This document shows positions 10,698 through 37,206 of a stretch of 47,336 nt of DNA, one piece after another. Location of the stretch: positions 1 to 47,336 of the forward strand of contig MHZT01000050.1 of NCBI GenBank assembly GCA_001828855.1, written 5' to 3'. The notes below the pieces were generated by a model that saw nothing but the letters and a program-made list of their open reading frames with translations, was not told the origin of the DNA and searched no databases. The stretch's first letter is position 1; the number at the start of each line of letters is the position of its first letter. The stretch is from Rhodobacterales bacterium RIFCSPHIGHO2_02_FULL_62_130 (GTDB taxonomy: Bacteria; Pseudomonadota; Alphaproteobacteria; Rhodobacterales; Rhodobacteraceae). Both the position numbers and the translations under genes were made by a program.

Positions 10698-10712
10698 ATA
10701 ACCTAGCATTAT
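10698..10712. promoter_or_regulatory. ATAAC-N5-ATTAT palindrome, putative LysR-type operator
   Basis: The sequence ATAAC-ctagc-ATTAT lies between the divergent HpcH/HpaI operon and the bicupin gene. It matches three other sites at 15193, 21576 and 37192 in the form ATAAY-N5-RTTAT and contains the LysR box T-N11-A. It sits about 130 bases upstream of the aldolase start and 85 bases upstream of the bicupin start. The function is inferred from recurrence and position. Confidence 0.6.
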
Positions 10713-10796
10713 AGGGCCGGAATTTACCGGATATCGCTGCGGGGGCGTCCTGCCTTAACTGGCGTCAACCGCAACCAGACACAAAGGAGTTGGATC

Positions 10797-11636
10797 ATGC
10801 GTATTTCCGAAGCAGCCACATCGGACGGCGGAAATGTCGGTTCGATGCGGACAGGGACGCTGTCGCAAAAGTTCCTGTTGCAGGGCGAAGAAGGCTCGCC
10901 GAACAACTATCTGCTGAATGTGGGCCTGACCGGTTCGGGCGGCTGGGGTACTCCGCGCCACCGTCACAACTTTGATCAGATCCGCTATGTGCTGAAGGGG
11001 AAATATCCGGCCTCGCCGCACAAGATCATGGGCGAAGGCTCGGTCGCCTATTTCCCCGAAAGCGTGCATTACGGCCCGCAAGACCGCCCCGAGGGGCTTG
11101 AAATGATGGTGATCCAGTTCGGCGGGGCCAGCGGTTCGGGCTTCCTTTCGACCCCCGACCGCGAGGCCGCGAACAAACGGCTGGAAAGCAAGGGCACCTT
11201 CAAGGACGGCATCTTCACTTGGGTTGATGACAAGGGCAAGAAGCACAACATGGACGGCTCTGCCGCCTGTTTCGAAGAGGCGACCGGCCAGAAACTGGTG
11301 TTCCACCCTGCCCGTTACGATGACGTGGTGATGATGGACGCCGAGGCTTACGACTGGGCACCGACAGGCACGGCAGGGGTTTCGACCAAGCTGTTGGGCG
11401 TGTTCACCGAGCGCAACATCCAGATCCGTTTCATCAAGATCGACGCCGGTGCCACCTTTAACACCGGCACCCGCGACCAGATCGAAGTGCTGTTCTTGGG
11501 GACCGGCAGCATTACCGTTGACGGCAAGACCTATGGCGACAAGACCGGCATCGAGTTGCTGCCTGAAGACAAGCCGACGGACATCACCGCACAGGCAGAG
11601 TCGATCCTGTTCTCGGTGACGCTGCCGAAGTTCTGA
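10797..11636 (+). CDS. bicupin domain protein
   Basis: This is a 279-residue protein with two cupin barrels. The first carries the metal-binding pattern: His55 and His57 in RHRH, Gln61 in place of the usual Glu, and His91. The second, from about residue 190, has the barrel strands and a GTGSITVDG turn but lacks the His pair, so it is probably structural. A clear AAAGGAG ribosome binding site precedes the ATG. It is a single gene divergent from the threonate operon and is followed by a strong terminator. It could be a sugar-acid isomerase, dioxygenase or binding protein. The substrate is unknown. Confidence 0.8.
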   Translation: MRISEAATSDGGNVGSMRTGTLSQKFLLQGEEGSPNNYLLNVGLTGSGGWGTPRHRHNFDQIRYVLKGKYPASPHKIMGEGSVAYFPESVHYGPQDRPEGLEMMVIQFGGASGSGFLSTPDREAANKRLESKGTFKDGIFTWVDDKGKKHNMDGSAACFEEATGQKLVFHPARYDDVVMMDAEAYDWAPTGTAGVSTKLLGVFTERNIQIRFIKIDAGATFNTGTRDQIEVLFLGTGSITVDGKTYGDKTGIELLPEDKPTDITAQAESILFSVTLPKF

Positions 11637-11644
11637 CGGCGACA

Positions 11645-11675
11645 CCCCGGCGCGCGCTCCCCGCGCCGGGGCTTT
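11645..11675. terminator. strong GC-rich hairpin terminator between convergent genes
   Basis: A perfect 10-bp stem (11645-11654 with 11662-11671) with a 7-base loop is followed on the plus strand by CTTTCTC. It lies between the ends of the bicupin gene and the convergent LysR gene and can end transcription of the bicupin. The U-run is short. Confidence 0.75.
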
Positions 11676-11676
11676 C

Positions 11677-12603
11677 TCAGGGGGCGGGCGCGGTGCGTGA
11701 CAGTTCCAGCCCGACTTCCTTGACACAGGCGACCAGATCCTTGCGCGGCTGGTCCATCTCATAGCCTTCGCGGAAAAACACCGCGATGTTGCGGCTTAGG
11801 ATCGGGTCCTCGAACGGCAGGGCAACCAGACGGCCATCGGCAAATTCCGAACTGGCGGCATGGAACGGCAAAAGCGCCAGATAGTCCGATGTCGCCACAA
11901 GCGATTTCAGCAAGGACAAAGACCCGCAGACCGTCACCTGCTGAGGTGCCGCGACGTTCAGGGTTTTCATCACATATTCAAGAACCGAATGGGACCGCCG
12001 CGAGGTCGGCGAGATCCACGGATGTTTCACCAGATCATCCCAAGTCAGATTTTCCACCTCGAACAGAGGGTGGCCGGGCCGCGCAATGACGCAGCGGTTG
12101 TCGCGGAACAGCACTTGCTGGCGCAAACCGTCCAGCATGTCGAAAACCTCGGTCAGGCCGATCACAAAGTCGAAGTCCCGCCGCAGCAGACCCGTCAGCA
12201 GATCGAACTGCGCGTTTTCAACAACCTGCAAATCCCCGTCGGGATACATCGCGCGCCAGCGGCCCAAGGCCATGGGAATGACGCTGCCTGCCATGCTTGG
12301 CAGACTTCCGACGCGGATCGATTCAACCTCGCCGTTGCGGGCGTTCAGCAGGGCGCGCTTGGCAAGTTCGACTTCCTCGCGGATCAGGCGGGCATGACAG
12401 TAAAGAATCTCGCCAAAGCTGGTCGGAACGATGCCGGATGGGCCGCGTTCCATCAGATGCATCCCCATTTCTGCCTCAAGCCGATCCATCGAGGTGGACA
12501 GGGCGGGCTGCGAGACATGCAGCGTCTTGGCTGCCTTGTTCAGGCTGCCATGCTCGATCACGGTTGCGAAATAGAGCAGCTTCTTGGGGTCGATCTCGAA
12601 CAT
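11677..12603 (-). CDS. LysR family transcriptional regulator (candidate regulator of the whole region)
   Basis: This is a 308-residue LysR regulator. An N-terminal winged helix-turn-helix is visible at residues 20-45 (GSLNKAAKTLHVSQPALS), and a periplasmic-binding-like co-inducer domain follows from about residue 95. I prefer the ATG at 12603 because it gives the normal LysR N-terminus. An upstream ATG at 12714 overlaps the ALDH stop as ATGA and would add 37 residues; neither has a good Shine-Dalgarno. It is the last gene of a hydroxyacid dehydrogenase-ALDH-LysR operon whose promoter carries one of four copies of the same T-N11-A palindrome, making it the best candidate for binding them. Confidence 0.88.
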   Translation of the reverse strand: MFEIDPKKLLYFATVIEHGSLNKAAKTLHVSQPALSTSMDRLEAEMGMHLMERGPSGIVPTSFGEILYCHARLIREEVELAKRALLNARNGEVESIRVGSLPSMAGSVIPMALGRWRAMYPDGDLQVVENAQFDLLTGLLRRDFDFVIGLTEVFDMLDGLRQQVLFRDNRCVIARPGHPLFEVENLTWDDLVKHPWISPTSRRSHSVLEYVMKTLNVAAPQQVTVCGSLSLLKSLVATSDYLALLPFHAASSEFADGRLVALPFEDPILSRNIAVFFREGYEMDQPRKDLVACVKEVGLELSRTAPAP

Positions 12604-12710
12604 GTCGGCGGTGTCCTGCTCTTGCGGCAACGCGCACGCCGCAAGGGCAGAGTGTATAGGGAACGCACCGGCGGGCAAGCCCGCTGGCAGCGCCCTGTCG
12701 TCAACCGCAG

Positions 12711-14162
12711 TCATACCCGAACGCGACGCTCGGCGATGGTTTTGGCAACGGTATAGCTTTGATACATCTCGGGGCCGCCCTCGCGCCCGATCCCGCTTTC
12801 GCGGTAGCCACCGAAGGGCGCATCGGCACCGGGGCTGGTAAAGCAGTTCAGTGCTACAGACCCCACCTGCAATTCATGCGTCAGCCAGTTCGCTGTCGCC
12901 ATTTCATTGGTAAAGACGAAACCGGCCAGACCCATCTCAAGGCTGTTGCTGATCTGAAGCGCCTGTTCCATCGACTTGACCGCCATGCAGGGCGCAATCG
13001 GGCCGAAGGTTTCCTCGGTCATCACCTGCGCATCGGGCGGCACATCGGCCAGCACCGTGGGCTGGAAGAACCAGCCGCGATTGCCAAGCCGCGCGCCGCC
13101 TGTGGCCAGCCGCGCGCCACGGTCCACGGCATCTTTCACAAACGCCTCCATCGTCGCCAGACGGCGGCGATTGGCCAACGCACCCATCTGCACGCCCTCC
13201 ATAAAGCCGTCCCCCACCTTCAGCTTTTCCGCCTCATGCGTCAGGGCGGCCACGAAATCGTCATAGACGCGCTCATGGATCAGAAAGCGTGACGCGGCAG
13301 AACAGAACTGCCCCGCCATGCGGAATTTCCAATGCGCCGCCAGCCGCGCCACCTCGGCGGGATCAACGTTTTCGTCGATCAGAACGGGGGCATGACCGCC
13401 CAGCTCCATCAGCACGGGCTTCATGGTTTCAACGGCAAGGCGGCTTAGATGCTTGCCGACATGGATCGATCCGGTCAGCGTCACCAGCCGCGTGATGGGC
13501 GACAGAACCAGCGTGCGCGACACCTGATCAGAGTCGCCGAACACCACGTTCAGCACCCCCTTGGGCAGGCCTGCGTCGATAAAGCACTGCGCGAACAGGC
13601 AGGCGGTGGCGGGCGTATCCGACGACGGTTTCAGGATTATCGAACAGCCCGTCGCCAGCGAGGCGCTGATCTTGCGCGACGGCGCGCTCATCGGGACGTT
13701 CCACGGGGTAAAGGCGGCAACGGGGCCGACGGGTTCGCGGATCACATATTGCTGGATCGGCGGATCGGTCGGCACGATGCGGCCATAGATGCGGCGGATT
13801 TCCTCGGAATCCCAGTCAAGGAAGGTGGCCGAGCGTTCGATTTCGGCCCGCACCTCGGCCAAGGTGCGACCGGATTCCTGCACAAAGATCGGCGCGATTT
13901 CCTCGGCCCGCTGCCGTACCAGTGCCGCCGCCCGCCGCATCAACGCGGCCCGTTCGCTGGGCGAAGTTTTGCGCCACACCTCGAACCCGCGCGCGGATGA
14001 CGCAAGTGCTGCGTTCAGATCATCCTCGGTTGCCTTCGGCACGGTGCCGATGATCGCCTCGGTGCTAGGGTTTTCGACGTTGCACAGGGTCGGGCGGTCA
14101 TAAATCCATTCACCGTCGATCAACAGGCCGATGCGCGGATAGGAAAGGGTGGGTTCGGTCAT
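12711..14162 (-). CDS. NAD(P)-dependent aldehyde dehydrogenase
   Basis: This is a 483-residue ALDH-superfamily enzyme with a full active site: Asn155 in PWNVP, Lys178 in LKPS, Glu253 in MELGG and Cys287 in GQFC. It resembles the succinate-semialdehyde or glycolaldehyde type by length and motif spacing, but the substrate is not decided by the sequence. It lies 27 bases downstream of the D-2-hydroxyacid dehydrogenase, and its stop overlaps a possible LysR start. It is one of three aldehyde dehydrogenases in the window, which differ clearly from each other around the catalytic cysteine. Confidence 0.9.
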   Translation of the reverse strand: MTEPTLSYPRIGLLIDGEWIYDRPTLCNVENPSTEAIIGTVPKATEDDLNAALASSARGFEVWRKTSPSERAALMRRAAALVRQRAEEIAPIFVQESGRTLAEVRAEIERSATFLDWDSEEIRRIYGRIVPTDPPIQQYVIREPVGPVAAFTPWNVPMSAPSRKISASLATGCSIILKPSSDTPATACLFAQCFIDAGLPKGVLNVVFGDSDQVSRTLVLSPITRLVTLTGSIHVGKHLSRLAVETMKPVLMELGGHAPVLIDENVDPAEVARLAAHWKFRMAGQFCSAASRFLIHERVYDDFVAALTHEAEKLKVGDGFMEGVQMGALANRRRLATMEAFVKDAVDRGARLATGGARLGNRGWFFQPTVLADVPPDAQVMTEETFGPIAPCMAVKSMEQALQISNSLEMGLAGFVFTNEMATANWLTHELQVGSVALNCFTSPGADAPFGGYRESGIGREGGPEMYQSYTVAKTIAERRVRV

Positions 14163-14189
14163 AGCGGGCGTCCTTTGCAGTCGGTCTGC

Positions 14190-15098
14190 TTAAAGCGTGT
14201 CAAGAAAGGCCAAAACCTCGGCCTCGGCGAGTGTGGCGGCGCGGGCGCGTTGGCCCCAAGTCTGCGCGCCGATATGCGGGGTCAGGATGACGTTGTTCAG
14301 GGCTGAAAGGCGGGCGGGCACCTGTGGTTCGCTGTCCAGCACGTCCAGCGCGGCCCCCGCGATCCGGCCTGTTTCAAGCGCGTCAATCAGGGCAAAGGTA
14401 TCAACCAAAGTGCCGCGACCTACGTTCACCAGCCGTCCCTTTGGCCCCAATGCCGCCAGCACGTCGGAATCAATCACGCCTGCCAGATCATCGGTCCCCG
14501 GCACGGCCAGCACCAGCACATCCGATGCCGCCGCCAGCGCCTGCCAGCCATCATGCAGCGCGCCCAAACCGGCGTTCGAGGTGCGATCAAGCCCCGCGAT
14601 CTGCATCCCCGACACCCGCGCTCGCGCGGAAATCGCCTGCCCTATCCGCCCGCTTAGCCCCGCGATGCCCATGGTCATCCCGACCAGACTATCGCCCAGA
14701 TCGAACCGCTGCCCCTCCCAAGCGCCACTGCGGGCAAAGGCATCGGCGTTGCGCAGGTTGCGGCACAGCATCTGCGTCAGCGCCATCGCCAGATCGGCCA
14801 CGTCCTCGGTCACCGTCTCGGAAACCGGCCGCAGCCTGATCCCGCGCGCCGCCAATGCGCCCGAGTCAATCTTGTCCAGCCCCGCCCCTTGCGAGATGAC
14901 AAAGGCCAGATTTGGCAGCAGATCGACCATCGCCGCCGAACACCCGCGCGAGGCACTGGTCATCAGCACGCGCACCTTGGCACGCGCATCGACGGGCAAG
15001 GCAGCAATAGCCGCCGCATCGGGCGCGATCTGCCAGAACGGCTCTAGTCGTGGATAGGACATGCCCGCAAGTGCGGGAAAGGCAAGGATCGGCGGCAT
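14190..15098 (-). CDS. D-2-hydroxyacid dehydrogenase
   Basis: This is a 302-residue NAD-dependent dehydrogenase of the D-isomer family. It has GLSGRIG at 147-153, catalytic Arg228 in VGRGT, Glu257 in DSEP and His275 in TPHIG, so the active-site triad is complete. It interconverts a 2-oxoacid and a D-2-hydroxyacid such as glycerate, glyoxylate/glycolate or a sugar acid. I chose the ATG at 15098, with GGAAG upstream, over a TTG 36 bases earlier. It is the first gene of the operon with ALDH and LysR, divergent from the MmgE/PrpD gene, with a putative operator between them. Confidence 0.87.
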   Translation of the reverse strand: MPPILAFPALAGMSYPRLEPFWQIAPDAAAIAALPVDARAKVRVLMTSASRGCSAAMVDLLPNLAFVISQGAGLDKIDSGALAARGIRLRPVSETVTEDVADLAMALTQMLCRNLRNADAFARSGAWEGQRFDLGDSLVGMTMGIAGLSGRIGQAISARARVSGMQIAGLDRTSNAGLGALHDGWQALAAASDVLVLAVPGTDDLAGVIDSDVLAALGPKGRLVNVGRGTLVDTFALIDALETGRIAGAALDVLDSEPQVPARLSALNNVILTPHIGAQTWGQRARAATLAEAEVLAFLDTL

Positions 15099-15192
15099 CG
15101 GAAAGGGGCTTCCAGCTTGGGAAATCAGGGGCAAACTACTCCGCGCGCGACGGGTGGCGCAACGCGGGGCAGGACATACGCGGCCCTTTGAT

Positions 15193-15207
15193 ATAACCTT
15201 GTGTTAT
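15193..15207. promoter_or_regulatory. ATAAC-N5-GTTAT perfect palindrome, putative LysR-type operator
   Basis: ATAAC-cttgt-GTTAT is a perfect inverted repeat between the divergent hydroxyacid dehydrogenase/ALDH/LysR operon and the PrpD gene. It is the most symmetric of the four copies in the window. The spacing gives the LysR T-N11-A box. The location suggests auto-regulation of the LysR operon together with control of PrpD. Confidence 0.65.
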
Positions 15208-15289: not shown

Positions 15290-16687
15290 ATGTCTGACTC
15301 CCGCGACCCCGACACCCGTGACCTTGTTCACATCTTTGCCGACCACGCGGCGAACCTGCGCTATGACGATCTGTCCCCAAGCGCCCGCGACGCCGCCAAG
15401 CAAAGCATCCTTGACACGCTGGGCGTGATCCTTGCGGCCAGCGGGATGGAACCGGCCGTGCAGGCGGTGATCGAGATCGTGCGCGAAACGGGCGGCGCGC
15501 CCGATTGCACGCTGCTGGCCTTTGGCGGCAAGGCCCCTGCCCTGATGGCGGCCTTTGCCAATGGCGCCTTGGCTCATTGTCTGGATTATGACGACCAGAC
15601 CCCATGGGGCCAGCATTGCGCCAGCTCGATCATCCCCGCTTGCTTTGCCCTTGCTGAACGACGCGGTGGCGTGACGGGGGCAGAGCTGATCACCGCCGTT
15701 GCCATCGGTCAGGATATCTTTGCCCGCCTGCGCTGCAATGTTGGTTGGAAGAAAGACTGGAACCTGTCGACCGTGCTGGCGGTCTTTGCCGCCACGGCCG
15801 CCGCTGCCCGCGTGGCGGGGCTGCCTGCCGAAAAGATCGCGCATGCCATCGGCATCGCCTCGATGCAGTCCAGTGGCATCATGGAGATGATAGCCGGACG
15901 CGGCAGCGACCTGCGCGGCATGTATGCGGGCTTTTCGGCCAAGGGCGCGGTGCTGGCGGTCATGATGGCGGAAAAGGGGGTGACGGGTATCGACCGGATG
16001 TTCGAAGGCCAATACGGTTTTTTCAACAGCTATTTCGGCGGGCGCTATGACCGCGCGGCCATGCTGGCGGGGCTGGGCACCGACATGCTGGGCGCAGGCA
16101 CGCTGTATAAACGCTGGCCCTGCGTTGGCACGGCACATAGCCATATGAAAGCAGCCATCGACATTGTGACCGAACAGAACCTGTCGCTGGCCGAGATCGC
16201 CGAAATCCGCCTGCATGTTGGGGATTACCATGATCTGATGTGCCAGCCGCTGGCAGAGCGTCGCGCGCCTGCGACCCTTGCCGATGCCAAATTCAGCCTG
16301 CCGTTTCTGGTGTCCGTTGCCATCGTGCGCAAAGGCATGGCGGTGACGGACTTTTCCGAAACCGGCCTGCGCGATGCAGAGGTGCTTGCGGCGGGCCGCA
16401 AGATCAGCCTTGTGTCTGACCCCGCGCTGGACTGGACGCTAGAGCTTCCGGCAGGTCGGGTCGAAATCGTGGCCAACGACGGGCGGTCTTGGATGAAAAC
16501 CGGCACCGGCGTTCCGGGCAATGCCGACAACCCTATGGACTGGGAGGACGTCTGCGCCAAGTTCCGCGAATGTGCGCGTGTCGCCATCACCCCCGTCGCG
16601 GAAAGCAAGATCGCCCGTGCCATCGAACTGGCACGGGCGCTGGAAGACGTCGCGGATGCGGCAGATCTGATCCGGTCGCTGGCCTAG
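15290..16687 (+). CDS. MmgE/PrpD family protein
   Basis: This is a 465-residue member of the MmgE/PrpD (2-methylcitrate dehydratase-like) fold, with the N-terminal all-helical domain containing HCLDYDDQTPWG near residue 96 and the small C-terminal lid. Family members dehydrate, isomerise or decarboxylate tri- or dicarboxylic hydroxyacids; members in sugar-acid clusters are largely uncharacterised. A paralogue lies at 40645..42018 with the same SGMEPAV, WNLS and GSDLRG blocks. The gene is monocistronic, divergent from the LysR operon. Its TAG stop shares the four bases CTAG with the stop of the convergent SDR. Confidence 0.87.
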   Translation: MSDSRDPDTRDLVHIFADHAANLRYDDLSPSARDAAKQSILDTLGVILAASGMEPAVQAVIEIVRETGGAPDCTLLAFGGKAPALMAAFANGALAHCLDYDDQTPWGQHCASSIIPACFALAERRGGVTGAELITAVAIGQDIFARLRCNVGWKKDWNLSTVLAVFAATAAAARVAGLPAEKIAHAIGIASMQSSGIMEMIAGRGSDLRGMYAGFSAKGAVLAVMMAEKGVTGIDRMFEGQYGFFNSYFGGRYDRAAMLAGLGTDMLGAGTLYKRWPCVGTAHSHMKAAIDIVTEQNLSLAEIAEIRLHVGDYHDLMCQPLAERRAPATLADAKFSLPFLVSVAIVRKGMAVTDFSETGLRDAEVLAAGRKISLVSDPALDWTLELPAGRVEIVANDGRSWMKTGTGVPGNADNPMDWEDVCAKFRECARVAITPVAESKIARAIELARALEDVADAADLIRSLA

Positions 16688-17460
16688 ATGCCAGCGGTCT
16701 GCGCCCCATCGGCCACCAGAGCGTGGCCGGTGATGAAGGCGCCCGACTCTGAACACAGGAACAGCACGGTGGCGGCAATCTCTTCGGGCTTGCCCATGCG
16801 GCCCACGGGTTCCTGTTCGATGATGCGCGCGCGGCCTTCCTCGGTTCCGCCGGTGTAGCGGGCGATCATGGGGGTGTCGATGATGCCTGGACACAGCGCG
16901 TTCACGCGGATGCCCTGATCGGCATATTCCAGCGCTGCCACCTTCGACGCCACGGTCACCCCGAACTTCGACGCGCAATAGCCCGACTGGTTGCGGATGG
17001 CGATCACCCCCGCGCCGGACGAGGTGTTCACAATCGCCCCGCCGCCGTTCGCCAGCATCAGCGGAATCTGATGCTTCATGCACAGGAACACGCTTTTGAG
17101 ATTCACCGCCAGAACGCGGTCCAGCATCTCTTCGGTCAGATCGACAATCGACGCGCCGGGCTGTTCGATGCCTGCATTGTTGAAGGCCGCGTCCAACCGG
17201 CCAAAGGCGGCGACAGTCTGGTCCAGCGCCGCCTTGATCTCGGCGGATTTCGTCACATCGGCGCGCAGGGACAGCGATGTGCCGCCCAGCGCGGCAATCT
17301 GCGCCGCCGTTTCGGTCAAGCCCCGATCCGAGATATCGACAATCGCAACGCTTGCACCGGCTGCGGCAAAGGCCAGCGCGGTGGCCCGCCCGATCCCGCT
17401 GCCGGCACCCGTTACAAAGGCAACCTTGCCGGAGAAATTGAATACGGGGGCTGTGGTCAT
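16684..17460 (-). CDS. SDR family oxidoreductase
   Basis: This is a 258-residue classical SDR with TGAGSGIG at 17-24, NNAG at 94-97, Ser147/148, Tyr161 and Lys165 (YCASK). A conserved TGHALVADG segment closes the C-terminus. It is downstream of, and in the same direction as, the sugar importer genes but separated from them by a hairpin terminator at 17481-17519, so read-through from that operon would be partial. Its 3' end overlaps the PrpD gene by the palindrome CTAG. A role in oxidising the imported sugar is plausible; the substrate is unknown. Confidence 0.87.
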   Translation of the reverse strand: MTTAPVFNFSGKVAFVTGAGSGIGRATALAFAAAGASVAIVDISDRGLTETAAQIAALGGTSLSLRADVTKSAEIKAALDQTVAAFGRLDAAFNNAGIEQPGASIVDLTEEMLDRVLAVNLKSVFLCMKHQIPLMLANGGGAIVNTSSGAGVIAIRNQSGYCASKFGVTVASKVAALEYADQGIRVNALCPGIIDTPMIARYTGGTEEGRARIIEQEPVGRMGKPEEIAATVLFLCSESGAFITGHALVADGAQTAGI

Positions 17461-17480
17461 GATCGGTCCTTGTCGTTCGA

Positions 17481-17519
17481 TAAAAATGGCAAGCGCCCGC
17501 TAACAGGCAGGCGCCTGTC
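17481..17519 (-). terminator. intrinsic terminator or attenuator after the ABC permease gene
   Basis: On the minus strand, arms 17519-17510 and 17497-17488 pair over ten positions with one mismatch, and the run ATTTTTA follows (17487-17481). It lies just after the permease stop and before the SDR, so it can end or attenuate the importer transcript. Confidence 0.7.
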
Positions 17520-17521
17520 TT

Positions 17522-18733
17522 TCAGTGGCCCTTGGCCTGCCCCTGGTTGCCCACGGTATAGATGGCGGCGGCAACAACCACGACGATGCCTTCGATCAGC
17601 CCCTGCCAGTTTGCCCCAAGGTTCAGGATGTTGAAGCCGTTGGTCAGCGAATACAGCAGCAGCGCCCCCGCCAGCGTCTTGATCACACTGCCCGCCCCGC
17701 CGAAAAGCGAGGTGCCGCCAAGGATCGCCGCCGCAATCACCGTCAGCTCGGCCCCCGTCAGGCCGGCGGGGTTGATCGAGCGCAGGCGGCTGGCGAACAG
17801 CACACCGGCAAAGCCCGCCGCCCCGCTGCACAGCACAAAGGCCATCAGCTTGTAACGCAGCACATTGATGCCCGACAAACGTGCGGCTTCGGGATTGCCG
17901 CCCACGGCGTAAAGACGGCGGCCCACCATGGTGAAGGTCAGCACAAACCACACCAGCGTGGTAAAGATGCCCATGTAGACAACCGGCGTGCGCAACACCA
18001 GCTCGCCCCCCGAGGCCGTCGCAAAGGCCAGCAGGGCCGCGCCCCCGATGATCGTGCCCACCGCCGCTGGTCGCAGTTGCTTTTGCGCTGCACGCGATTT
18101 CAGGATGCTGCCGATGCCCAGCGCCAGACAGGCGACCCCGGCGGCAACCAACAGCCAGAACACGTCGAACTTTCCGCCTTCAAAGGCTTTCATGGTGGCG
18201 ATCACCTCGGGGTCCTTGACCGAAAGCGACCGCCCGTCGGTGTAGATCAGGATCAGGCCGCGCACGGCGGTCATGGTGCCCAAGGTCACGATGAAGGCGT
18301 TGATGCCCAGAAACTGCACGATAGAGCCGTTCAGCAGGCCGATGCCCATGGCCACGGCCATCGCCAGCGCCACGGCAGGCCAGAAGCCGACCGCATCAGC
18401 ATTGCCCACCAGCACCGCCGCCGAGATCGCCGCAACCGAGGCTACGGAAAGGTCGAAGTTGCCGCTTATCAGGATCACCGTCATCGCGACCGCCATGATC
18501 GCGATCAGCGATGCCTGATAGATCACGTTGGTCATGTTCAGGATACTTAGGTAATTGTCCTGCCCCGTATAGGTGGTGATCATCGTCAGCACGAAGATCA
18601 GCAGGATCAGCGCATAATAGACGCCCATCTCGCGCAGCCCGAACATGCGCGCCCAGTTATTCTTCTTCGGGGTGGCCGACGGCGCGGCGCGGGATTCGGT
18701 CTTTTGCATTGGGGTCTCGCTTGCCATGGTCAT
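17522..18733 (-). CDS. sugar ABC transporter permease (RbsC family)
   Basis: This is a 403-residue inner-membrane permease of the ribose/xylose type. It begins with a polar N-terminus of about 35 residues and then has around ten hydrophobic segments. The conserved NAFIVTLGTMTAVRGL block and the cytoplasmic GGNPEAARLSGI loop that contacts the ATPase are both present. I chose the ATG at 18733, one base after the ATPase stop with AGGAC upstream; an ATG at 18769 inside the ATPase gene is the alternative. It forms the channel of the importer with the adjacent ATPase and binding protein. The substrate is a sugar or sugar derivative that cannot be specified. Confidence 0.9.
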   Translation of the reverse strand: MTMASETPMQKTESRAAPSATPKKNNWARMFGLREMGVYYALILLIFVLTMITTYTGQDNYLSILNMTNVIYQASLIAIMAVAMTVILISGNFDLSVASVAAISAAVLVGNADAVGFWPAVALAMAVAMGIGLLNGSIVQFLGINAFIVTLGTMTAVRGLILIYTDGRSLSVKDPEVIATMKAFEGGKFDVFWLLVAAGVACLALGIGSILKSRAAQKQLRPAAVGTIIGGAALLAFATASGGELVLRTPVVYMGIFTTLVWFVLTFTMVGRRLYAVGGNPEAARLSGINVLRYKLMAFVLCSGAAGFAGVLFASRLRSINPAGLTGAELTVIAAAILGGTSLFGGAGSVIKTLAGALLLYSLTNGFNILNLGANWQGLIEGIVVVVAAAIYTVGNQGQAKGH

Positions 18734-18734
18734 G

Positions 18735-20291
18735 TCAATGTCCTGCCGCTTGATCTGAATTGTGGCCATCGGCCGGTTTGGCTGTGGCTTGCCCGCCTGC
18801 CAGCAACAGAAGTTCGTGTTCGGTGGTCTGATGCGCGTGACGAATGGCGGTGCATTCGCCGTCGCGCATCACCAGAATCCGGTCGGCAACTGCCAGCAAC
18901 TCTTCAAATTCGGACGAGACCATCACAACGGTCTTGCCCTCGTCCGCCAGTTTACGGATCAGCCGCAGGATGTCGGTCTTGGCACCGATGTCGATGCCTG
19001 CCGTCGGTTCATCCAGCAGGAACAGCTTCACATCGCTGAACATCCATTTGGCGATGGTGACCTTTTGCGCGTTGCCGCCGCTGAGTTCGCGCACCAGAAT
19101 ATCCGGAGAGCTTGCCTTGATCGACAGCATGCGGATCGCCTCTTCGCCGCGGTCCTTTTCGCGTTGGGTGACGGGCAGCGACCCCAGCACCGACACGCTG
19201 TGCAAGGCAGGCAGCGTCAGGTTGCGCCAGATTTCAAAATCCGGCACCAGCCCCTGCCCCATCCGGTCTTCGGGCACCAGACCGATGCCCGCCTTGACCG
19301 CCGCCGCCGTGCCAATCGGCACGGGCTGACCATCCAGCACAACCGTGCCAGTGGCATGTTTGTCCGCGCCAAAGATGGCATGGATCAACTCGCTGCGCCC
19401 AGACCCAAGCAGGCCAGCAATCCCGATCACCTCGCCCTTGGCAACCTTTAGCGACAGCGGCTTCAACCGCCCCGACGAGGCAAGGTCGCGCAGTTCCAGC
19501 CGGATGGGTGCCGCGGCCAAGGCCGCTTCGCTGCGCCCCTGTGCCGCGCGTTCCAACTCGACAATCTGCTTGCCCACGATGGCTTCGGCCAGACGGCTTT
19601 CGTCCAGCGTATGGGTTTCGGCGCGCAGAACCGCCTCGCCGTCGCGCAGCACCGTCACCTGATCGGTCAGCGCCATCACCTCATCAAGGAAGTGCGAGAC
19701 GAAGAGAACCGCCTTGTTTTCAACCTTGGAAAGCTGCTTGACCGCCGCGTAGACCAGTTCGCGTTCGTCGGTGGCCAGCGAGGCGGTAGGTTCGTCCATC
19801 ACGATCAGATCGGCACCGGTTCCCAAAGCCTGCAGGATGCAGACCATCTGCCGCGCGCCGATGGACAGATCGCTGACCAGCGCATCCGGATCAGGCCAAT
19901 AGTTCATCCGCGCGCACAGCTCGTCAAACCGCTTGCGCGAGGCACGGGCCAGACGCCACGCCCCCCCACTGCCCAGAAACACGTTTTCAAGCACCGAAAG
20001 CGTGGGAACCAAAGGGATATGCTGGTGGATCGTGGCCACCCCCATATCATTCGCAGCCTTGGGGCTGTCCCAGCTTACGGGTTGCCCGCGCCAGATGATG
20101 GTTCCGCCCGATGCCTTGAAGGTTCCGGACAGAATTTTGATAAGGGTAGACTTACCCGCACCGTTCGCGCCCAAAAGGCCGTGAACCTTGCCTTGCACGA
20201 TGTCGAGATCGACCCCGCGCAAGGCAACTGTGGCGTTGCCAAAGGTCTTTGCGACCGAACGCAGGGTCATGATCGGAGTGTTCTGGTCCAT
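18735..20291 (-). CDS. sugar ABC transporter ATP-binding protein, two ABC domains (RbsA family)
   Basis: This is a 518-residue fused ATPase. Domain 1 has Walker A GANGAGKST at 41-49, signature LSIGARQ and Walker B IVMDEPTAS. Domain 2 has the degenerate Walker A GLLGSGRSE, signature LSGGNAQK and FLLDEPTAG. This asymmetry is normal for RbsA/XylG proteins. It powers import of the sugar captured by the binding protein encoded 38 bases upstream and precedes the permease by one base. It is a complete, ordinary member of the family. Confidence 0.93.
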   Translation of the reverse strand: MDQNTPIMTLRSVAKTFGNATVALRGVDLDIVQGKVHGLLGANGAGKSTLIKILSGTFKASGGTIIWRGQPVSWDSPKAANDMGVATIHQHIPLVPTLSVLENVFLGSGGAWRLARASRKRFDELCARMNYWPDPDALVSDLSIGARQMVCILQALGTGADLIVMDEPTASLATDERELVYAAVKQLSKVENKAVLFVSHFLDEVMALTDQVTVLRDGEAVLRAETHTLDESRLAEAIVGKQIVELERAAQGRSEAALAAAPIRLELRDLASSGRLKPLSLKVAKGEVIGIAGLLGSGRSELIHAIFGADKHATGTVVLDGQPVPIGTAAAVKAGIGLVPEDRMGQGLVPDFEIWRNLTLPALHSVSVLGSLPVTQREKDRGEEAIRMLSIKASSPDILVRELSGGNAQKVTIAKWMFSDVKLFLLDEPTAGIDIGAKTDILRLIRKLADEGKTVVMVSSEFEELLAVADRILVMRDGECTAIRHAHQTTEHELLLLAGGQATAKPADGHNSDQAAGH

Positions 20292-20329
20292 GCGTTATGC
20301 CGCTCCTTCAGGTCAACGCCGCGTGTCGA

Positions 20330-21301
20330 TCACCACTGCTCGGGGCAGTCGGCGATGGTGTCCTTGGTGATTTGCGGCATGTCATACGAGACATAGCGCG
20401 CCTTCGGCGTGTCGGGGTTGGTGACAGCTTCATACATCGCCTGGAACATCAACTCGCCCAGATAACGCGGACGGGTGCAAACCGAACCATACATCTCGCC
20501 TGCCATGATGGCATCAGCGCCCAGCTTGGAACCGCCGCCCGTGGCGATCAGCGTGACATCCGACCCTGCCGCCTCGATGGCGCGGGCGCAGCCGATAGCC
20601 ATGTCGTCAGCCTGGCTGAAGATCAGGTCCAGATCTTCATGGGCAGTCAGGAAGTTCTGGCAAACCGCTTCGCCTTCGTCCGGTGTCCAGTTGGTCGGCT
20701 GGGCGGCAACGATCTCATAGTTGGCACCGGCCTTGTCCAGCGCGGCGCGAAACCCGTCAGTGTCCAGCTTGACCACGGCATAGGCCGGATCACCTTCCAC
20801 GATTGCGATCTTGGCGGTGCGGTCTTTCGGCAGGATGGCCGCTGCCATTTCGCCCGAAACGTAACCGGCCTTGAAGTTGTCGGTGGCGACGAAAGCCGTC
20901 AGTTTCGGATAGGGATCATCAACGGCGCGGGTGTTCGGATCACCGACCTGCGATGCGATGGCAACAACCGGTTTGCCCGCCTCGTCGATCTTGTCCACGA
21001 AGGCTTCGGCCACGACCGAGTCCAGCGGCAAGAAACCGATGGCGTCCACGTTCTGCGTCAGCAGATCGTCGATGGCGTTGCCCTGCTTTTCCACGCTGCC
21101 GCGCGGATCAAGCACCACAACCGCCACGCCTGCTTTGGCCGCCGCCTCTTTGAAGCCTTCGGCCGTCTGCACGTTATAGGGATACTCAAGGCTGGCCGGA
21201 ACATAGCCGAAGGTCAGTTCCTCGGCATAGGCGGCACCTGCCGACAACAGCGTTGCAGCCATCAGCGCGGAACGGATAGTCCCTTTCGACGTCATTTTCA
21301 T
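20330..21301 (-). CDS. sugar ABC transporter substrate-binding protein
   Basis: This is a 323-residue periplasmic binding protein of the ribose-binding type. A Sec signal peptide is clear (AGAAYA then EE, cleavage near 26/27). A strong GGGAGG precedes the ATG at 21301. Unusually it has four cysteines, at 214, 238, 275 and 319, all repeated in the same order in the paralogue at 23535..24512, suggesting two disulfides. The binding cleft has TGGGS where many relatives have Gly-Phe/Asn-Asp. It is the first gene of the importer operon, and its upstream region contains one of the shared palindromes. Confidence 0.9.
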   Translation of the reverse strand: MKMTSKGTIRSALMAATLLSAGAAYAEELTFGYVPASLEYPYNVQTAEGFKEAAAKAGVAVVVLDPRGSVEKQGNAIDDLLTQNVDAIGFLPLDSVVAEAFVDKIDEAGKPVVAIASQVGDPNTRAVDDPYPKLTAFVATDNFKAGYVSGEMAAAILPKDRTAKIAIVEGDPAYAVVKLDTDGFRAALDKAGANYEIVAAQPTNWTPDEGEAVCQNFLTAHEDLDLIFSQADDMAIGCARAIEAAGSDVTLIATGGGSKLGADAIMAGEMYGSVCTRPRYLGELMFQAMYEAVTNPDTPKARYVSYDMPQITKDTIADCPEQW

Positions 21302-21575: not shown

Positions 21576-21590
21576 ATAACTACGTATTAT
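21576..21590. promoter_or_regulatory. ATAAC-N5-ATTAT palindrome, putative LysR-type operator
   Basis: ATAAC-tacgt-ATTAT lies in the 547-base region between the importer operon and the divergent MFS gene, 275 bases from the binding-protein start. It fits the consensus ATAAY-N5-RTTAT of the other three sites. A weaker copy, ATAGG-tcagc-ATTAT, is at 21731-21745 nearer the MFS gene. No gene is recognisable in this intergenic region. Confidence 0.6.
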
Positions 21591-21779
21591 GCCATTCACT
21601 GCACGCCCCGACGGCGCGGCAGGACAAGGGCCTGTCACTTTGATCGCCAAAGGGCGCAAGAGCCGGATAAAGCCCCTGAGAACCTTGGTCTTTGCGCTAA
21701 ATCAACCGCATCAAAACGGGTCGGGCTGGTATAGGTCAGCATTATAGCCAGACACCGCGAGTCCCGCGTGGCAAGCGTT

Positions 21780-21848: not shown

Positions 21849-23474
21849 ATGTCAAAATCGTCTTTGTCCGGCCCGCTTTCCAGCCCTGTCTTTCGCTTGC
21901 TGTGGCTGGGCGGCGTGATTTCCAACCTTGGGACCATGGTGCAGACGGTGGGGGCGGGGTGGCTGATGGCGACCATCGCCAGCTCGAACGACATGGTGGC
22001 CTTTGTGCAGGCGGCGACGACGCTGCCGATCATGCTGTTTTCGATCCCTTCGGGTGCCATCGCCGACAGCTATGAACGGCGGCGCGTGCTGCTGGTGGCG
22101 CAGGTGTTCATGATGGCTGTGGCGATCGGGCTTGCGGCAGTGGCCGTTGCCGGACATGTCACGCCTTGGCTGTTGCTGGCGCTGACGTTCCTGCTGGGCT
22201 GCGGCACCGCCCTTCATACGCCCGCATGGCAGGCCTCGGTTGGCGATATCGGGCCGCGCGACCAGATCGCGGGGGCGGTCACGCTGAACAGCATGGGCCT
22301 GAATATGACCCGCAGCGTCGGCCCTGCGCTTGGCGGCTTTATCGTGGCGGCGGCGGGGGCGGCGGCAGCTTTTGCCTTCAATGCGCTCAGCTTTGTGCCG
22401 ATGGTATTTGCGCTGCTGAAGATGCCCGCCGCACAGCCCAAGGCCCTTTTGCCGCGCGAAAACCTGTCGCGGGCGGTCTGGGCAGGTCTGCGCTATGTAT
22501 CGATGTCGCCCGACCTGATGATCGTGATCCTGCGCGGCTTTGCCTTTGGCGTCTCGGCTGTGGCCATCCTGGCCCTGCTGCCATTGGTGGCGCGCGACCT
22601 GCTCGATGGCAGCGCCTTGGTCTTTGGCGTCCTGCTGGGGGCGTTTGGCATCGGCGCGATCCTTGGCGGTCTGGCGAACGGCTGGCTGCGCGCCCGCCTA
22701 AGCAGCGAAGCCGTGGTGCGGCTTGCCTTCATCGGCATGGGCTTGGCCGCCTGTCTGGTGGGCATCAGCCGGTCAGTCTGGCTGACCAGTCTTGTGCTGC
22801 TGCCTGCGGGCGCAAGTTGGGTGCTGGCGCTGTCGTTGTTCAACGTGGTGGTGCAACTTTCCACCCCGCGCTGGGTGGTTGGGCGGGTGCTGTCGATCTA
22901 TCAGACCGCGATTTTCGGCGGGATGACAGCGGGAGGCTGGATCTGGGGCGCGCTGTCGCAAGGCTTTGATGTGCCAACCGCACTTTATGCGGCCTCTGCG
23001 GCATCGGTCGCAGGGGCGGCCATCGGGTTGCGGTTCCGCTTGCCTGCGCTAAGCGCGCAGAACCTTGATCCCTTGAACCAGTTTCAAGAACCCCCGACCC
23101 AGCTTGACATCCAGCCCCGCAGCGGCCCAATCTTTATCCTGATCGAATATGACATCGACCAAGCCGATGTGCCCGCCTTTCTGGCCGTGATGACCGACCG
23201 CCGCCGCATCCGCATCCGCGACGGCGCCCGCCATTGGGTGCTGTTGCGCGATGTGGAAAACCCGAACCTGTGGAAAGAGGCCTACCATGTGCCGACATGG
23301 GCGGATTACCTGCGCCACAACCAGCGCCGCACCCGCATGGACGCCGATGTGACTGACAGGCTTGTCGCCCTGAACCGGCGCGGTGAGAAACCGCATGTCC
23401 GCCGCATGATCGAACGCGAGACCGTGCCGCAGACCGACGACATGATGATGAAACCGTTTCAGGACCTGCACTAG
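21849..23474 (+). CDS. MFS transporter with C-terminal soluble domain (MFS_3 family)
   Basis: This is a 541-residue protein. The first 410 residues form the membrane part of an MFS exporter, with the cytoplasmic ERRRVL motif after the second helix and Pro- and Gly-rich helices. The last roughly 125 residues are soluble and resemble a monooxygenase-like alpha/beta domain (IFILIEYDID onward) known at the C-terminus of MFS_3/EntS-like proteins. It probably exports a small molecule such as a pathway intermediate or toxic analogue, but direction and substrate are not shown. It is divergent from the sugar importer and is followed by a hairpin facing the second binding-protein gene. Confidence 0.85.
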   Translation: MSKSSLSGPLSSPVFRLLWLGGVISNLGTMVQTVGAGWLMATIASSNDMVAFVQAATTLPIMLFSIPSGAIADSYERRRVLLVAQVFMMAVAIGLAAVAVAGHVTPWLLLALTFLLGCGTALHTPAWQASVGDIGPRDQIAGAVTLNSMGLNMTRSVGPALGGFIVAAAGAAAAFAFNALSFVPMVFALLKMPAAQPKALLPRENLSRAVWAGLRYVSMSPDLMIVILRGFAFGVSAVAILALLPLVARDLLDGSALVFGVLLGAFGIGAILGGLANGWLRARLSSEAVVRLAFIGMGLAACLVGISRSVWLTSLVLLPAGASWVLALSLFNVVVQLSTPRWVVGRVLSIYQTAIFGGMTAGGWIWGALSQGFDVPTALYAASAASVAGAAIGLRFRLPALSAQNLDPLNQFQEPPTQLDIQPRSGPIFILIEYDIDQADVPAFLAVMTDRRRIRIRDGARHWVLLRDVENPNLWKEAYHVPTWADYLRHNQRRTRMDADVTDRLVALNRRGEKPHVRRMIERETVPQTDDMMMKPFQDLH

Positions 23475-25932: not shown

Positions 25933-25995
25933 TTGCATCTTTGCGATTTTTGCAGATAATCGCCCGAATACGGCAGTTTGCAGGGGCGCCCTTCG

Positions 25996-26895
25996 ATGGA
26001 CGAGATGATGACCAACCGCGCCTTTTTGCAGGTGGTCGAAAGCGGCAGCTTTTCCGCAGCTGCCGCCGAGATCGGGGTTTCGGTTGCCACCGTGGCGCGA
26101 CAGGTTAACAGCCTTGAACAGCGACTTGGCGTGCATCTTCTGCACCGCACCACCCGCAGCTTGTCCCTGACCGAGGCGGGCAAACTTTATCACGCCCGCA
26201 TCCGAGAGGTTTTGCAAACCTACGACTCGGTAAAGCGCGAGGTTGCGTCGTTCCAGAAAGACGTGAAGGGCCTGCTCCGGCTGCATCTGCGTCATTCGGT
26301 GGGCAATCAGGTTATCGTGCCCGCCCTGCCCGCTTTTCTGAAGAAGCATCCCAATATCAAACTGGATGTCACCCTGACCGATGTGCGCGAGGATCTGGTG
26401 TCGCAGGGCGTCGATGTGGCGGTCTGGCTGGGCAGTCTTGAGGATTCCAGCCTGATCGCGCGCCGCCTGTCGCCCGGCAAACGGCTGGTCTGTTGCAGTC
26501 CCGGCTATCTTGCCGCCAACGGGATGCCCACGAATCCTGACGCGCTTGAGACCCACAATTGCATCGTCTACCGCGCCAAAAGCTATGACAGTTCTTGGCG
26601 CTTTAGCAGGGACGGCAAGACCACCTCTGTCAGCGTGTCCGGCAATCTGGAATCCGAAAGTTCCGCCGTGCTGATGACAGCGGCGCTCAACGGGCTGGGG
26701 CTGGTGATGCTGCAAGAGGCGATGGTGCGCGCCTCGATCCAAAGCGGGGCGCTGGTGGACGTGTTCCCCGATTATCAGGTCAGCTCGACCGATTCGGATA
26801 TCGCGCTTTACGCGGTGTATCCGGGGTCAAAGCAAACCTCGCCCAAGACGCGGGCCTTCATTGATTTCCTTGTGCGGCTGTTCAAGGAATACTAG
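25996..26895 (+). CDS. LysR family transcriptional regulator
   Basis: This is a 299-residue LysR protein of the AaeR/DmlR-like type. It has a DNA-binding domain at 1-60 (SGSFSAAAAEIGVSVATVARQ, then RTTRSLSLTEAG) and a co-inducer-binding domain after residue 85. I chose the ATG at 25996; a TTG 18 bases upstream keeps the frame. It lies between the amidohydrolase (same strand) and the convergent FMO-BKACE operon and may control either. Its TAG stop shares CTAG with the stop of the convergent carboxymuconolactone-decarboxylase-like gene. Confidence 0.87.
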   Translation: MDEMMTNRAFLQVVESGSFSAAAAEIGVSVATVARQVNSLEQRLGVHLLHRTTRSLSLTEAGKLYHARIREVLQTYDSVKREVASFQKDVKGLLRLHLRHSVGNQVIVPALPAFLKKHPNIKLDVTLTDVREDLVSQGVDVAVWLGSLEDSSLIARRLSPGKRLVCCSPGYLAANGMPTNPDALETHNCIVYRAKSYDSSWRFSRDGKTTSVSVSGNLESESSAVLMTAALNGLGLVMLQEAMVRASIQSGALVDVFPDYQVSSTDSDIALYAVYPGSKQTSPKTRAFIDFLVRLFKEY

Positions 26896-27437: not shown

Positions 27438-27440
27438 GGG

Positions 27441-28313: not shown

Positions 28314-28323
28314 GGCGAACCTT

Positions 28324-29151: not shown

Positions 29152-29154
29152 GGT

Positions 29155-30915: not shown

Positions 30916-31081
30916 CAGATATCCTTCCCCGCAAACTTGCTTGCGCCGACCTTAGGGGCGAAGCGACGGCGGAAACACCGGGCCAAAGGGGAAGCATCTT
31001 GGCGCAGGGCGCAAAAATGGCCTGCTTGACGCAAGCCCCTTTGCCAGCCCATCACAGTCTGGCCAGAAGCGGAGTTTCCCC

Positions 31082-33461: not shown

Positions 33462-33471
33462 CAGTTTTCCC

Positions 33472-34257: not shown

Positions 34258-34258
34258 G

Positions 34259-35254: not shown

Positions 35255-35356
35255 ATGAAACCTCCCTTTTCTTTCCCCCGTTTAGCGCGCCAGAGGGGCG
35301 GCAAGTATCACCAGCATCCGGTGACAATCTTTGCGCCGCGCGTTCAAATCGCGATG

Positions 35357-36196
35357 TCAGGCAGCGCCCACCTCGACATGCAGCGTAAAGACAGCGGCAT
35401 TGCGCTTGCCCGCCACAAGATCCTGAACGGGGCCGCAATAGACGGTGCAGAACAGCGTATGCCCCTCCGGACCGCCAATGGTGCAGGCCACCCCGCAGCC
35501 GTCAAAGGCGATGCGGTCGGTGATCTGGCCGCCGTCCAGCACACGCAGAAATTCGCCGGTGTTGAAACAACCGGTCCAGATCGCGCCGCTGGCATCGGCG
35601 CAAATCCCGTCGGGCTGACGCTGGCCCAGATCGGCAAAGGTGCGGCGGTTGGCCAATGCGCCATCAGGCGACAGATCGAACGCGGTCAACTTGCCGCGCC
35701 AAGTCTCGGCCACGACCAGAGTGCGCCCTCCGTCGATGATGACCATGGCATTGGGAAACTCGATATCCCCCGCCACCGCGCGAATACTGCCATCGGGATC
35801 GACACGGTGGATGGAGGTCGCCTTGATCGGGTCGCCCGCATCATAGTCATAGCCGAAATCGCCCACATAGATCCGTCCAGCGTGGTCGATGGTGAAATCG
35901 TTGACATCGCCGCCGACAAAAGGCGTCAGATCTGCGTATTCCGCAATCCCGTCACCTGTGATGCGATACAGCCGGAAATCCTTGGAGGACGCGACAATCG
36001 GCGTGCCATCGGGCAAAAAGCCAAGCCCCGAAGGCCGGTGCGGCACCTCGGCGATCTTTTCCCGCTCTCCGTTCAGGCCAAGCCGGTAAACCTTGTGGTC
36101 GAACACATCCGAAACCCAAAGCCGCCCGTCGCGCCATTTGGCACCTTCAAGGAAAATGAAATCCTCGGCCAGCCTTTCGGCCTTGTGGTCACGCAT
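35357..36196 (-). CDS. SMP-30/gluconolactonase family lactonase
   Basis: This is a 279-residue six-bladed propeller enzyme that hydrolyses sugar lactones. The four metal ligands of the family are visible: Glu17 (LEGAKW), Asn99 (VNDF), Asn149 (FPNAM) and Asp196 (QPDGIC). It lies 50 bases after the SDR at 36247 and before Ldh2 in the minus operon. The pairing with an SDR suggests oxidation of a cyclic sugar to the lactone, then opening. A second SMP-30 protein is encoded on the other arm at 39728..40630. The two are distant by sequence and may act on different ring sizes. Confidence 0.88.
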   Translation of the reverse strand: MRDHKAERLAEDFIFLEGAKWRDGRLWVSDVFDHKVYRLGLNGEREKIAEVPHRPSGLGFLPDGTPIVASSKDFRLYRITGDGIAEYADLTPFVGGDVNDFTIDHAGRIYVGDFGYDYDAGDPIKATSIHRVDPDGSIRAVAGDIEFPNAMVIIDGGRTLVVAETWRGKLTAFDLSPDGALANRRTFADLGQRQPDGICADASGAIWTGCFNTGEFLRVLDGGQITDRIAFDGCGVACTIGGPEGHTLFCTVYCGPVQDLVAGKRNAAVFTLHVEVGAA

Positions 36197-36246
36197 CGCT
36201 TCCCCCCCCGTGTATCGGGCCGGCCCGCAGACCGACCCGCAGTTTT

Positions 36247-36990
36247 TTACCAGCCGCCATCAACCTGAATGTTCTGGCCGGTGATCAGATCGGATTGCGG
36301 CGTGGACAGGAACACCGCCAGATTGGCGATATCCACCGCCTCGATCCGCTTTTTCATGCTTTGGTTTTCCAGAATCCACTGGTGATATTCTTCGCGCTTG
36401 TCGCCACGGTCGCGGAATTCGGCCTCGGACAGCACGGCGCCAGGCGAGATGCCGTTGACGTTGATCAGCCATTCGCCCAACTCGCGCGCCATGCCCTTTA
36501 TCAGGCCATACATCGCGCCCTTCGACGCGATATAGGGCACATAGCCATCCCAGCGCCCCGTCAGTGTCAGCGAGGTGATGTTGACAATCTTGCCCGCCTT
36601 CTTGCGCTTCATATGTTCGGCGCAGGCCCGCGACAGCACGAAAACGGCGGTCGAGTTGATGCGGATCTGGTCCTCGTATTCCTGAATCGAAAAGGCGTCG
36701 TGCTGCTTGAAGATCACAAGTGCCGCGTTGTTCACCAGCACATCGATGCCGCCGACCTCACCCCCCAAAACCTTGGCCATCGACTCAAGCGCGTCCAGCT
36801 TGCCCAGATCGCAGCCGATATAGCGCACGCCCGCGCCGATCTTGTCCAACCGCGCCTGCGCGTCCGGTGCGTCGGGCATGTCCAGCGCGATGACGTTGGC
36901 CCCTTCTTCAAGATACCGCTTGACCAGCGCCTGCCCGATCGTCCCCAAAGCCCCCGTGATAAGGACGTTCTTTCCCTGAAGTTGCGCCAT
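36247..36990 (-). CDS. SDR family oxidoreductase
   Basis: This is a 247-residue SDR with an unusual cofactor loop TGALGTIG at 12-19 where TGxxxGIG is normal. NNAA is at 87-90, and Ser140, Tyr153 and Lys157 (YIASK) complete the catalytic set. The ATG at 36990 follows GGAAGGAA; a long upstream frame is not coding. It is the first gene of the six-gene minus operon, divergent from the GMC operon, with a putative operator at 37192-37206 between them. A sugar 1-dehydrogenase feeding the SMP-30 lactonase is the simplest role. Confidence 0.88.
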   Translation of the reverse strand: MAQLQGKNVLITGALGTIGQALVKRYLEEGANVIALDMPDAPDAQARLDKIGAGVRYIGCDLGKLDALESMAKVLGGEVGGIDVLVNNAALVIFKQHDAFSIQEYEDQIRINSTAVFVLSRACAEHMKRKKAGKIVNITSLTLTGRWDGYVPYIASKGAMYGLIKGMARELGEWLINVNGISPGAVLSEAEFRDRGDKREEYHQWILENQSMKKRIEAVDIANLAVFLSTPQSDLITGQNIQVDGGW

Positions 36991-37191
36991 CGCATTTCCT
37001 TCCGTTTCCGCAGTCTGCGGCAAGTTTCGTTGCATCGGCCGGACCCTAGGGTCCAACCCGCGCGGGCGATACCGGACAGGCCGGAAAACACCTTTTCGGC
37101 CAGCGTAAAGGGCGGCGCGTAGGCTGGCGGTCAGAATTGGACAAAAGCACGGGTGGCGGCAATCGCTGATCGGCATGGCGCGGCGCAGGCA

Positions 37192-37206
37192 ATAATCTTT
37201 TGTTAT
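37192..37206. promoter_or_regulatory. ATAAT-N5-GTTAT palindrome, putative LysR-type operator
   Basis: ATAAT-ctttt-GTTAT lies between the two divergent SMP-30 operons, 86 bases upstream of the GMC start. It is the fourth match to ATAAY-N5-RTTAT in the window and again gives T-N11-A spacing. Function is inferred from recurrence and position. Confidence 0.6.

Follow-up and report, generated by a model that had tools for sequence, protein, structure and literature searches.

The window analysed here is the whole 47,336-nt stretch MHZT01000050.1 of Rhodobacterales bacterium RIFCSPHIGHO2_02_FULL_62_130, a member of the Rhodobacteraceae. It carries an operon for threonate use, a sugar ABC importer, several dehydrogenases, two SMP-30 lactonases, two MmgE/PrpD family proteins, a bicupin-like protein and two LysR-type regulators, LysR A and LysR B (Table 1). 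A 15-base pair (bp) dyad, ATAAY-N5-RTTAT, is repeated between divergent genes of this cluster. Comparison of sequences makes it very probable that LysR A binds these dyads and activates about 25 genes through them.

A search of the window with the dyad pattern returned exactly four matches, against a mean of 0.02 and a largest count of 1 in 100 dinucleotide shuffles. These are the four copies that the first-pass annotation of this DNA had listed. All four are intergenic and lie between divergent genes, as had been claimed and as the gene calls bear out. Two open reading frames touch sites, 9781-10698 and 37200-38915; both overlaps need unlikely TTG starts (the likely starts are ATG 10569 and ATG 37294), and the earlier statement that no site was noticed in a coding region most likely holds. 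The G+C content, put at 64% before, is 62.3%.

We then scored the window with a position matrix of 41 training sites, all from other genomes, mostly picked within one mismatch of the pattern and mainly before cluster genes. ATA and TAT are invariant in the 41 sites, most of which were preselected in this way. The five bases of the spacer carry 0.02-0.35 bits of information and the arms 0.89-2.0 bits. The five best places in the window were the four exact sites and 21731 (24.2 to 16.6), and the next best scored 4.6. The highest score in 60 simulated windows was 14.35. A matrix of 20 sites from outside Rhodobacterales also ranked these five places highest in the window (22.6 to 16.0, then 6.4). 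The additional place, operator 3b, differs from the literal pattern by two bases and is 155 bp from operator 3a. With this matrix support it is most likely a fifth site, so that the earlier number of four stands for exact copies and most likely falls one short for sites. T at position 2 and A at position 14 occur in all five, which agrees with the T-N11-A geometry of LysR boxes reported before. Measured from the start codon, the dyad centre lies 92 bp upstream for bicupin, 90 bp for PrpD1 and 95 bp for GMC; a LysR box is expected to centre near -65 from the transcription start.

Table 1. Dyad sites and genes of the window.
Feature	Position	Strand	Context	Evidence
Operator 1, ATAACCTAGCATTAT	10698..10712		between HpcH-led threonate operon (-) and bicupin (+)	exact match; matrix score 21.2
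Operator 2, ATAACCTTGTGTTAT	15193..15207		between 2-hydroxyacid dehydrogenase-aldehyde dehydrogenase-LysR A operon (-) and PrpD1 (+)	exact match; matrix score 24.2
Operator 3a, ATAACTACGTATTAT	21576..21590		between sugar ABC importer operon (-) and MFS gene (+)	exact match; matrix score 20.7
Operator 3b, ATAGGTCAGCATTAT	21731..21745		nearer MFS gene; centre 111 bp before MFS ATG	matrix score 16.6
Operator 4, ATAATCTTTTGTTAT	37192..37206		between SDR5-SMP30 operon (-) and GMC-SDR6-SMP30-PrpD2 operon (+)	exact match; matrix score 22.9
Threonate operon: HpcH aldolase, SDR, aldehyde dehydrogenase, LtnD (L-threonate dehydrogenase), OtnK, OtnC, OtnI, second LtnD-like gene	1468..10569	-		Pfam
Zinc alcohol dehydrogenase	1468-2490	-	end of threonate operon, uncertain member	
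Bicupin-like protein	10797..11636	+		no Pfam or NCBIfam family
LysR A	11677..12603	-	last gene of operon behind operator 2	PF00126 and PF03466
Aldehyde dehydrogenase and D-2-hydroxyacid dehydrogenase	12711..15134	-	upstream of LysR A	Pfam
MmgE/PrpD family protein 1 (PrpD1)	15290..16687	+		Pfam
Sugar ABC importer (binding protein, ATPase, permease) and SDR	16684..21301	-		Pfam; start ATG 21301 by ribosome-binding site
MFS_3 transporter	21849..23474	+		Pfam
LysR B	25978..26895	+	judged not regulator of these sites	
SDR5 and SMP-30 lactonase	35357..37176	-		Pfam
GMC oxidoreductase, SDR6, SMP-30 lactonase, MmgE/PrpD 2 (PrpD2)	37294..42018	+		Pfam

The dyad is rare in its own genome. The whole genome (4,970,223 bases) holds five exact places, four of them in the window, and one place for the control, which was the dyad pattern read backwards. 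The first-pass annotation had named many equal matches elsewhere in the genome as a point that would speak against a regulon, and the scan found no such surplus. The fifth copy, C30:76607, is on another contig; it spans a GGAGG, and a single base separates it from the ATG of a gene for a short protein that looks secreted. Because it overlaps a ribosome-binding site, we take it as probably due to chance and reject it as a regulon member; no sugar-catabolic gene was recognised nearby among open reading frames judged by eye. When one mismatch was allowed, the genome had 52 places compared with 47 for the control, no excess beyond the exact copies. Since this count is about that of the control, only the exact copies stand out, and we reject a regulon spread over the genome at one mismatch.

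Conservation of the sites in orthologous clusters, a check proposed with the first pass, was examined in clusters gathered through LysR A. Six loci came from a scan of genome contigs, two from genomes of the family and six from plasmids, the latter chosen by their LysR A match from 25 plasmid records found by tblastn. With the window this makes 15 clusters. Of 393 other family genomes 2 had LysR A, and of 384 other genomes of the class sample none, with no more than five candidates scored in most genomes. Two of three Paraburkholderia records found through bicupin were added as loci without a LysR A match.

Copies of the dyad are present at orthologous promoters in Rhodobacterales, in Rhizobiales and on a Cupriavidus plasmid, and the sites are thus kept across orders. 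A site scoring at least 17 (rounded) stands before bicupin in 12 of the 15 clusters (11 of the 14 others), with its centre 82-118 bp from the start. PrpD1 has a site scoring about 14 or more in 10 of the 11 clusters that carry the gene (9 of 10 others). For the 2-hydroxyacid dehydrogenase the figure is 9 of 12. In two of the three exceptions, L054 and L055, this gene comes after SDR5 in the same orientation; the third, L020, lacks a site there. The importer binding protein has a site within 450 bp in 8 of 9 clusters with sequence at that place. The ninth is L058, in which the match to this gene is split in two; the first part is preceded by an exact site at a distance of 309 bp. Of the 8 other clusters with sequence at the importer promoter, 4 (L057, L059, L066 and L069) have a second dyad there, at 98-120 bp from the first. 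GMC is preceded by a site in L066 (score 22) and in L073 (score 15, at 259 bp), and SDR6 is in L070, L060 and L061. L075 has no site within 450 bp of SDR6; an exact site lies about 1.1 kb before the gene. Across 16 loci there are 47 sites within one mismatch, and none of the 47 is inside a gene matching a window protein (only such genes were examined).

Two sites on Rhizobium plasmids, exact and with one mismatch (L057:31080-31094 and L058:27032-27046), separate irrA from an alpha/beta hydrolase gene and a repressor gene from a pyrroloquinoline quinone-dependent sugar dehydrogenase gene. They are a possible extra regulon member. In L058 (Rhizobium leguminosarum Ta6) SBP1, SDR2, SGL1, ALDH2, HpcH, ALDH1 and OtnK each match in two or three pieces, which reflects decay or sequencing errors.

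The gap between bicupin and HpcH was aligned for 11 of the 12 site-bearing clusters; L058 was omitted because of its split HpcH match. No other stretch of 15 columns in this alignment is as well conserved as the dyad (0.80 compared with 0.45 overall). Two short conserved blocks lie on the bicupin side of the gap, about 25 and 50 bp from the dyad. These could be an activation subsite and a -10 element, in which case the dyad would lie near -60. A sigma-70 scan of this gap in the window (10560-10800) found no consensus promoter.

The dyad is associated with LysR A when whole replicons are counted. In nine genomes that carry LysR A there are 44 exact copies and 11 of the control; the figures for six plasmids with LysR A are 18 and 0. 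In 24 genomes of the same family without LysR A (judged by an E value of 1e-50 or better) both numbers are 40. All 5 exact copies of Gemmobacter G787 are within 15 kb, and all 4 of plasmid pRL11 within 26 kb. Both of Cupriavidus pENH92 are within 15 kb, in the neighbourhood of LysR A.

Which protein would read the sites was considered next. Pfam found only the two LysR proteins as regulators among the 40 predicted window proteins. LysR A has the helix-turn-helix (PF00126, 1.5e-17) and substrate-binding (PF03466, 1.7e-36) domains; its open reading frame runs to 12714 and its homologues start at about 12603. Its recognition helix, SQPALSTSM, shows few substitutions across 18 homologues. LysR B, the only other candidate in the window and itself a LysR, shares 20% identity with LysR A, and in Mesorhizobium L069 its module lies beside the cluster. 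Its recognition helix is SVATVARQV, however, and the best matrix score at promoters of its module is below zero, both in the window and in L069. Moreover, L069 is the only one of 24 stretches compared that has a match to LysR B of at least 50% identity. We therefore reject LysR B as the regulator, and it is very unlikely that the sites belong to it or to both LysR proteins. A regulator encoded elsewhere, such as another PcaQ-like LysR protein, is improbable. Three further LysR genes of the genome score nearly as well as LysR A on the PcaQ model (131, 129 and 114 bits). Of three other LysR proteins of the genome that were compared with LysR A, two share 27% and 23% identity with it and one gives no match. 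In genomes of the family that lack LysR A the dyad is not in excess, although each has 13 to 48 LysR candidates, and the confinement of the Cupriavidus copies to the LysR A neighbourhood also points away from such a protein. The recognition helix, the promoters of LysR B without a dyad and the paralogue sites described below favour LysR A, which the first pass had placed in an operon preceded by a perfect copy.

Choice of the pattern after the fact was corrected for by testing 21,760 gapped palindromes (half-site of 4 or 5, gap of 0-16). ATAA-N7-TTAT ranked second in the window, with 4 occurrences compared with 0.049 expected (Poisson 2.4e-7, about 0.005 after Bonferroni correction); the top-ranked palindrome was GATC-N2-GATC. 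AT-rich palindromes are common in AT-rich genomes, and relatives hold scattered exact matches. Against this background, the corrected value, the 0.02 copies expected in the window and the conservation at orthologous promoters leave next to no room for chance. The clusters are homologous and sporadic, as the few genomes with LysR A show, so the dyad might have been kept through recent shared ancestry and not by selection. This is extremely unlikely, since the rest of the bicupin-HpcH gap has diverged whereas the dyad has not, and the spacer carries little information compared with the arms.

Several observations weigh against assigning the dyads to LysR A. Since LysR A was the means of finding the 15 clusters, its co-occurrence with the dyad there is by selection; the genomes and the two Paraburkholderia loci that lack it serve as controls. 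The core of the matrix depends on the original pattern because most training sites were chosen within one mismatch of it; the flanks and spacer are independent. LysR A of the window takes the third place in its operon and is not divergent from a target, and the importer start codon, ATG 21301, is 282 bp from the nearer site, which is far for a LysR site. L020 (Limimaricola) has a LysR A of 68% identity, yet only a site of score 10 before bicupin, at 108 bp. L060 and L061 lack a site at bicupin and have sites at other promoters; their LysR A proteins group with paralogues in a tree with 18 homologues (99/98) and so may not be true orthologues. The cluster of G773 has one site and none at PrpD1, and L017 has no site within 450 bp of GMC. 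The two Paraburkholderia loci, which carry bicupin and HpcH and no LysR A match, have no site scoring 10 or more, but bicupin and HpcH are on one strand there and the control is weak. Each of the two Paraburkholderia plasmids has one exact copy elsewhere. Exact copies also occur away from the cluster contig: all three in G773, 5 of 9 in G437, 6 of 10 in G790, 2 of 5 in G789 and 2 of 4 in G791. Limimaricola G792 has 2 exact copies and 1 of the control, neither copy in its 21-kb locus.

Second LysR A-like genes are present in L060, L061, L067 and L068 (Ensifer, Sinorhizobium, a Rhizobiales isolate and Mesorhizobium), with the dyad in the locus. They have 56-59% identity to LysR A, except for the L061 copy, which has 47% and three stops. 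For the paralogues in L067 (score 20.2) and L068 (13.2), the dyad lies between the paralogue and a divergent aldehyde dehydrogenase gene. There may be a subfamily of LysR A-like regulators sharing one operator.

With LysR A as the predicted activator, the regulon would most likely comprise about 25 genes. These are the threonate operon (8 genes, perhaps with the zinc dehydrogenase), bicupin, the three-gene LysR A operon, PrpD1, the four-gene importer operon, MFS, SDR5 with SMP-30, and the four-gene GMC operon. Ldh2, SDR4, YCII and HIBDH3, on the same strand after SMP-30, may or may not be co-transcribed. No site accompanies the BKACE-SDR-FMO, Asp/Glu-racemase and LysR B genes, which form a block of their own that is together in a Mesorhizobium (L069) and are outside the regulon. 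The earlier picture of one sugar-utilisation system thus applies to the flanking operons, which the sites tie together, and not to the BKACE/monooxygenase block with LysR B. FMO, Asp/Glu racemase, Ldh2, SDR4 and YCII (window 25978-35254) recur jointly in L069 and L086 with no dyad among them; BKACE and LysR B are present in L069 and HIBDH3 in L086. This module is probably separate, with its own regulator.

LtnD, OtnK and OtnC passed the NCBIfam cut-offs, and OtnI was below (278 of 325 bits). The bicupin-like protein has 74-90% identity in six relatives, and sequence searches of Pfam, NCBIfam and PDB gave no match. Its AlphaFold model is mediocre (mean pLDDT 69), and the 50 Foldseek matches listed are two-cupin proteins generally, with query TM-scores of 0.38-0.50. 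The model supports the fold class only. Near the end of the window is an insertion element at 43925-44745, with a transposase at 43991-44596 and 18-bp inverted ends. The contig stops at the apparent start of a second copy (47273-47326; 54 bases, 83% alike).

Among known systems, PcaQ of Sinorhizobium meliloti, a LysR protein that governs pca genes and a protocatechuate-inducible ABC importer, resembles the case proposed here in the joint control of catabolic genes and importer. Its NCBIfam model is also the best one for LysR A (132.3 bits). However, this is far below the TIGR02424 cut-off of 303.8, and the operator here, at 15 bp, is one base shorter than the 16-bp ATAACC-N4-GGTTAT of PcaQ. 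On score and spacing we rule out that LysR A is PcaQ. No protein of the genome is above the TIGR02424 cut-off, the PcaQ-spaced pattern ATAAC-N6-GTTAW occurs once in it, on contig C20, and no protocatechuate (pca) genes are among the 40 window proteins scanned.

TsaR is the closest solved LysR protein to LysR A by sequence (3fxq, E 1.5e-22), but it is named as the regulator of tsaMBCD. The operator core of OccR of Agrobacterium, another LysR regulator, is ATAA-N7-TTAT. For OccR, PMC5002191 describes a strong distal dyad about 64 bp upstream of the transcription start and a weaker one near -33. OccR serves octopine catabolism at one divergent promoter, in contrast to the several promoters here. 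VdtR of Brucella is reported to regulate the use of erythronate and threonate through a four-carbon acid pathway of the LtnD/OtnK type (PMC10580937), but belongs to the DeoR family and not, like LysR A, to the LysR family. The T-N11-A type of LysR box is already known, and the regulon itself is apparently new. In the open-licence literature, with GguR and OccR-type leads included and the RegPrecise and RhizoBindingSites tables outside the scope, we recognised no account of LysR A, its motif or its cluster. The excerpted text of a Rhizobium transposon sequencing study (PMC5118466) does not name the cluster genes.

We propose that a dimer or tetramer of LysR A would occupy TATAAC-N5-GTTATA upstream of each promoter. 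A pathway intermediate, the presumed inducer, would bind LysR A and start transcription in one direction or both. Occupancy of a strong dyad and activation triggered by an inducer have their analogy in LysR activators described in PMC5002191 and PMC3557286. Uptake, oxidation, lactone opening and the threonate route would be switched on jointly. Because LysR A is in the operon behind operator 2, it would also raise its own level, that is, be under positive autoregulation.

The HpaI/GarL-type aldolase, lactonases, dehydrogenases and ribose-type importer suggest that a sugar is oxidised to an acid and then split. Tetronate is converted to dihydroxyacetone phosphate (DHAP) by the LtnD/OtnI/OtnK/OtnC route. 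The cluster probably serves an imported sugar, which would be oxidised to an aldonic acid, and we guess that the acid is split to give a tetronate that enters this route. The importer does not tell its substrate because its binding protein is far below the cut-off of the ribose/allose-type models and its PDB matches are ribose- or monosaccharide-binding proteins.

More tentatively, and with much more doubt than confidence, we suggest that LysR A and its operators serve one undescribed non-phosphorylative sugar pathway. In this scheme the importer, dehydrogenases and SMP-30 lactonases would yield an aldonic acid, which the MmgE/PrpD proteins would dehydrate to a 2-keto-3-deoxy acid. The HpcH aldolase would cleave the latter to pyruvate and a tetrose, and oxidation of the tetrose would give tetronate and, through LtnD, OtnI, OtnK and OtnC, DHAP. 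By carbon counting alone, a seven-carbon or branched sugar would fit the scheme.

Under LysR A, one regulator would unite some 25 genes, among them those for an importer, two lactonases, both PrpD proteins, a bicupin without a family and the threonate route. A list of enzymes would thereby become a single testable pathway. The operator would also be a search handle for other genomes, including plasmids of legume symbionts such as pRL11.

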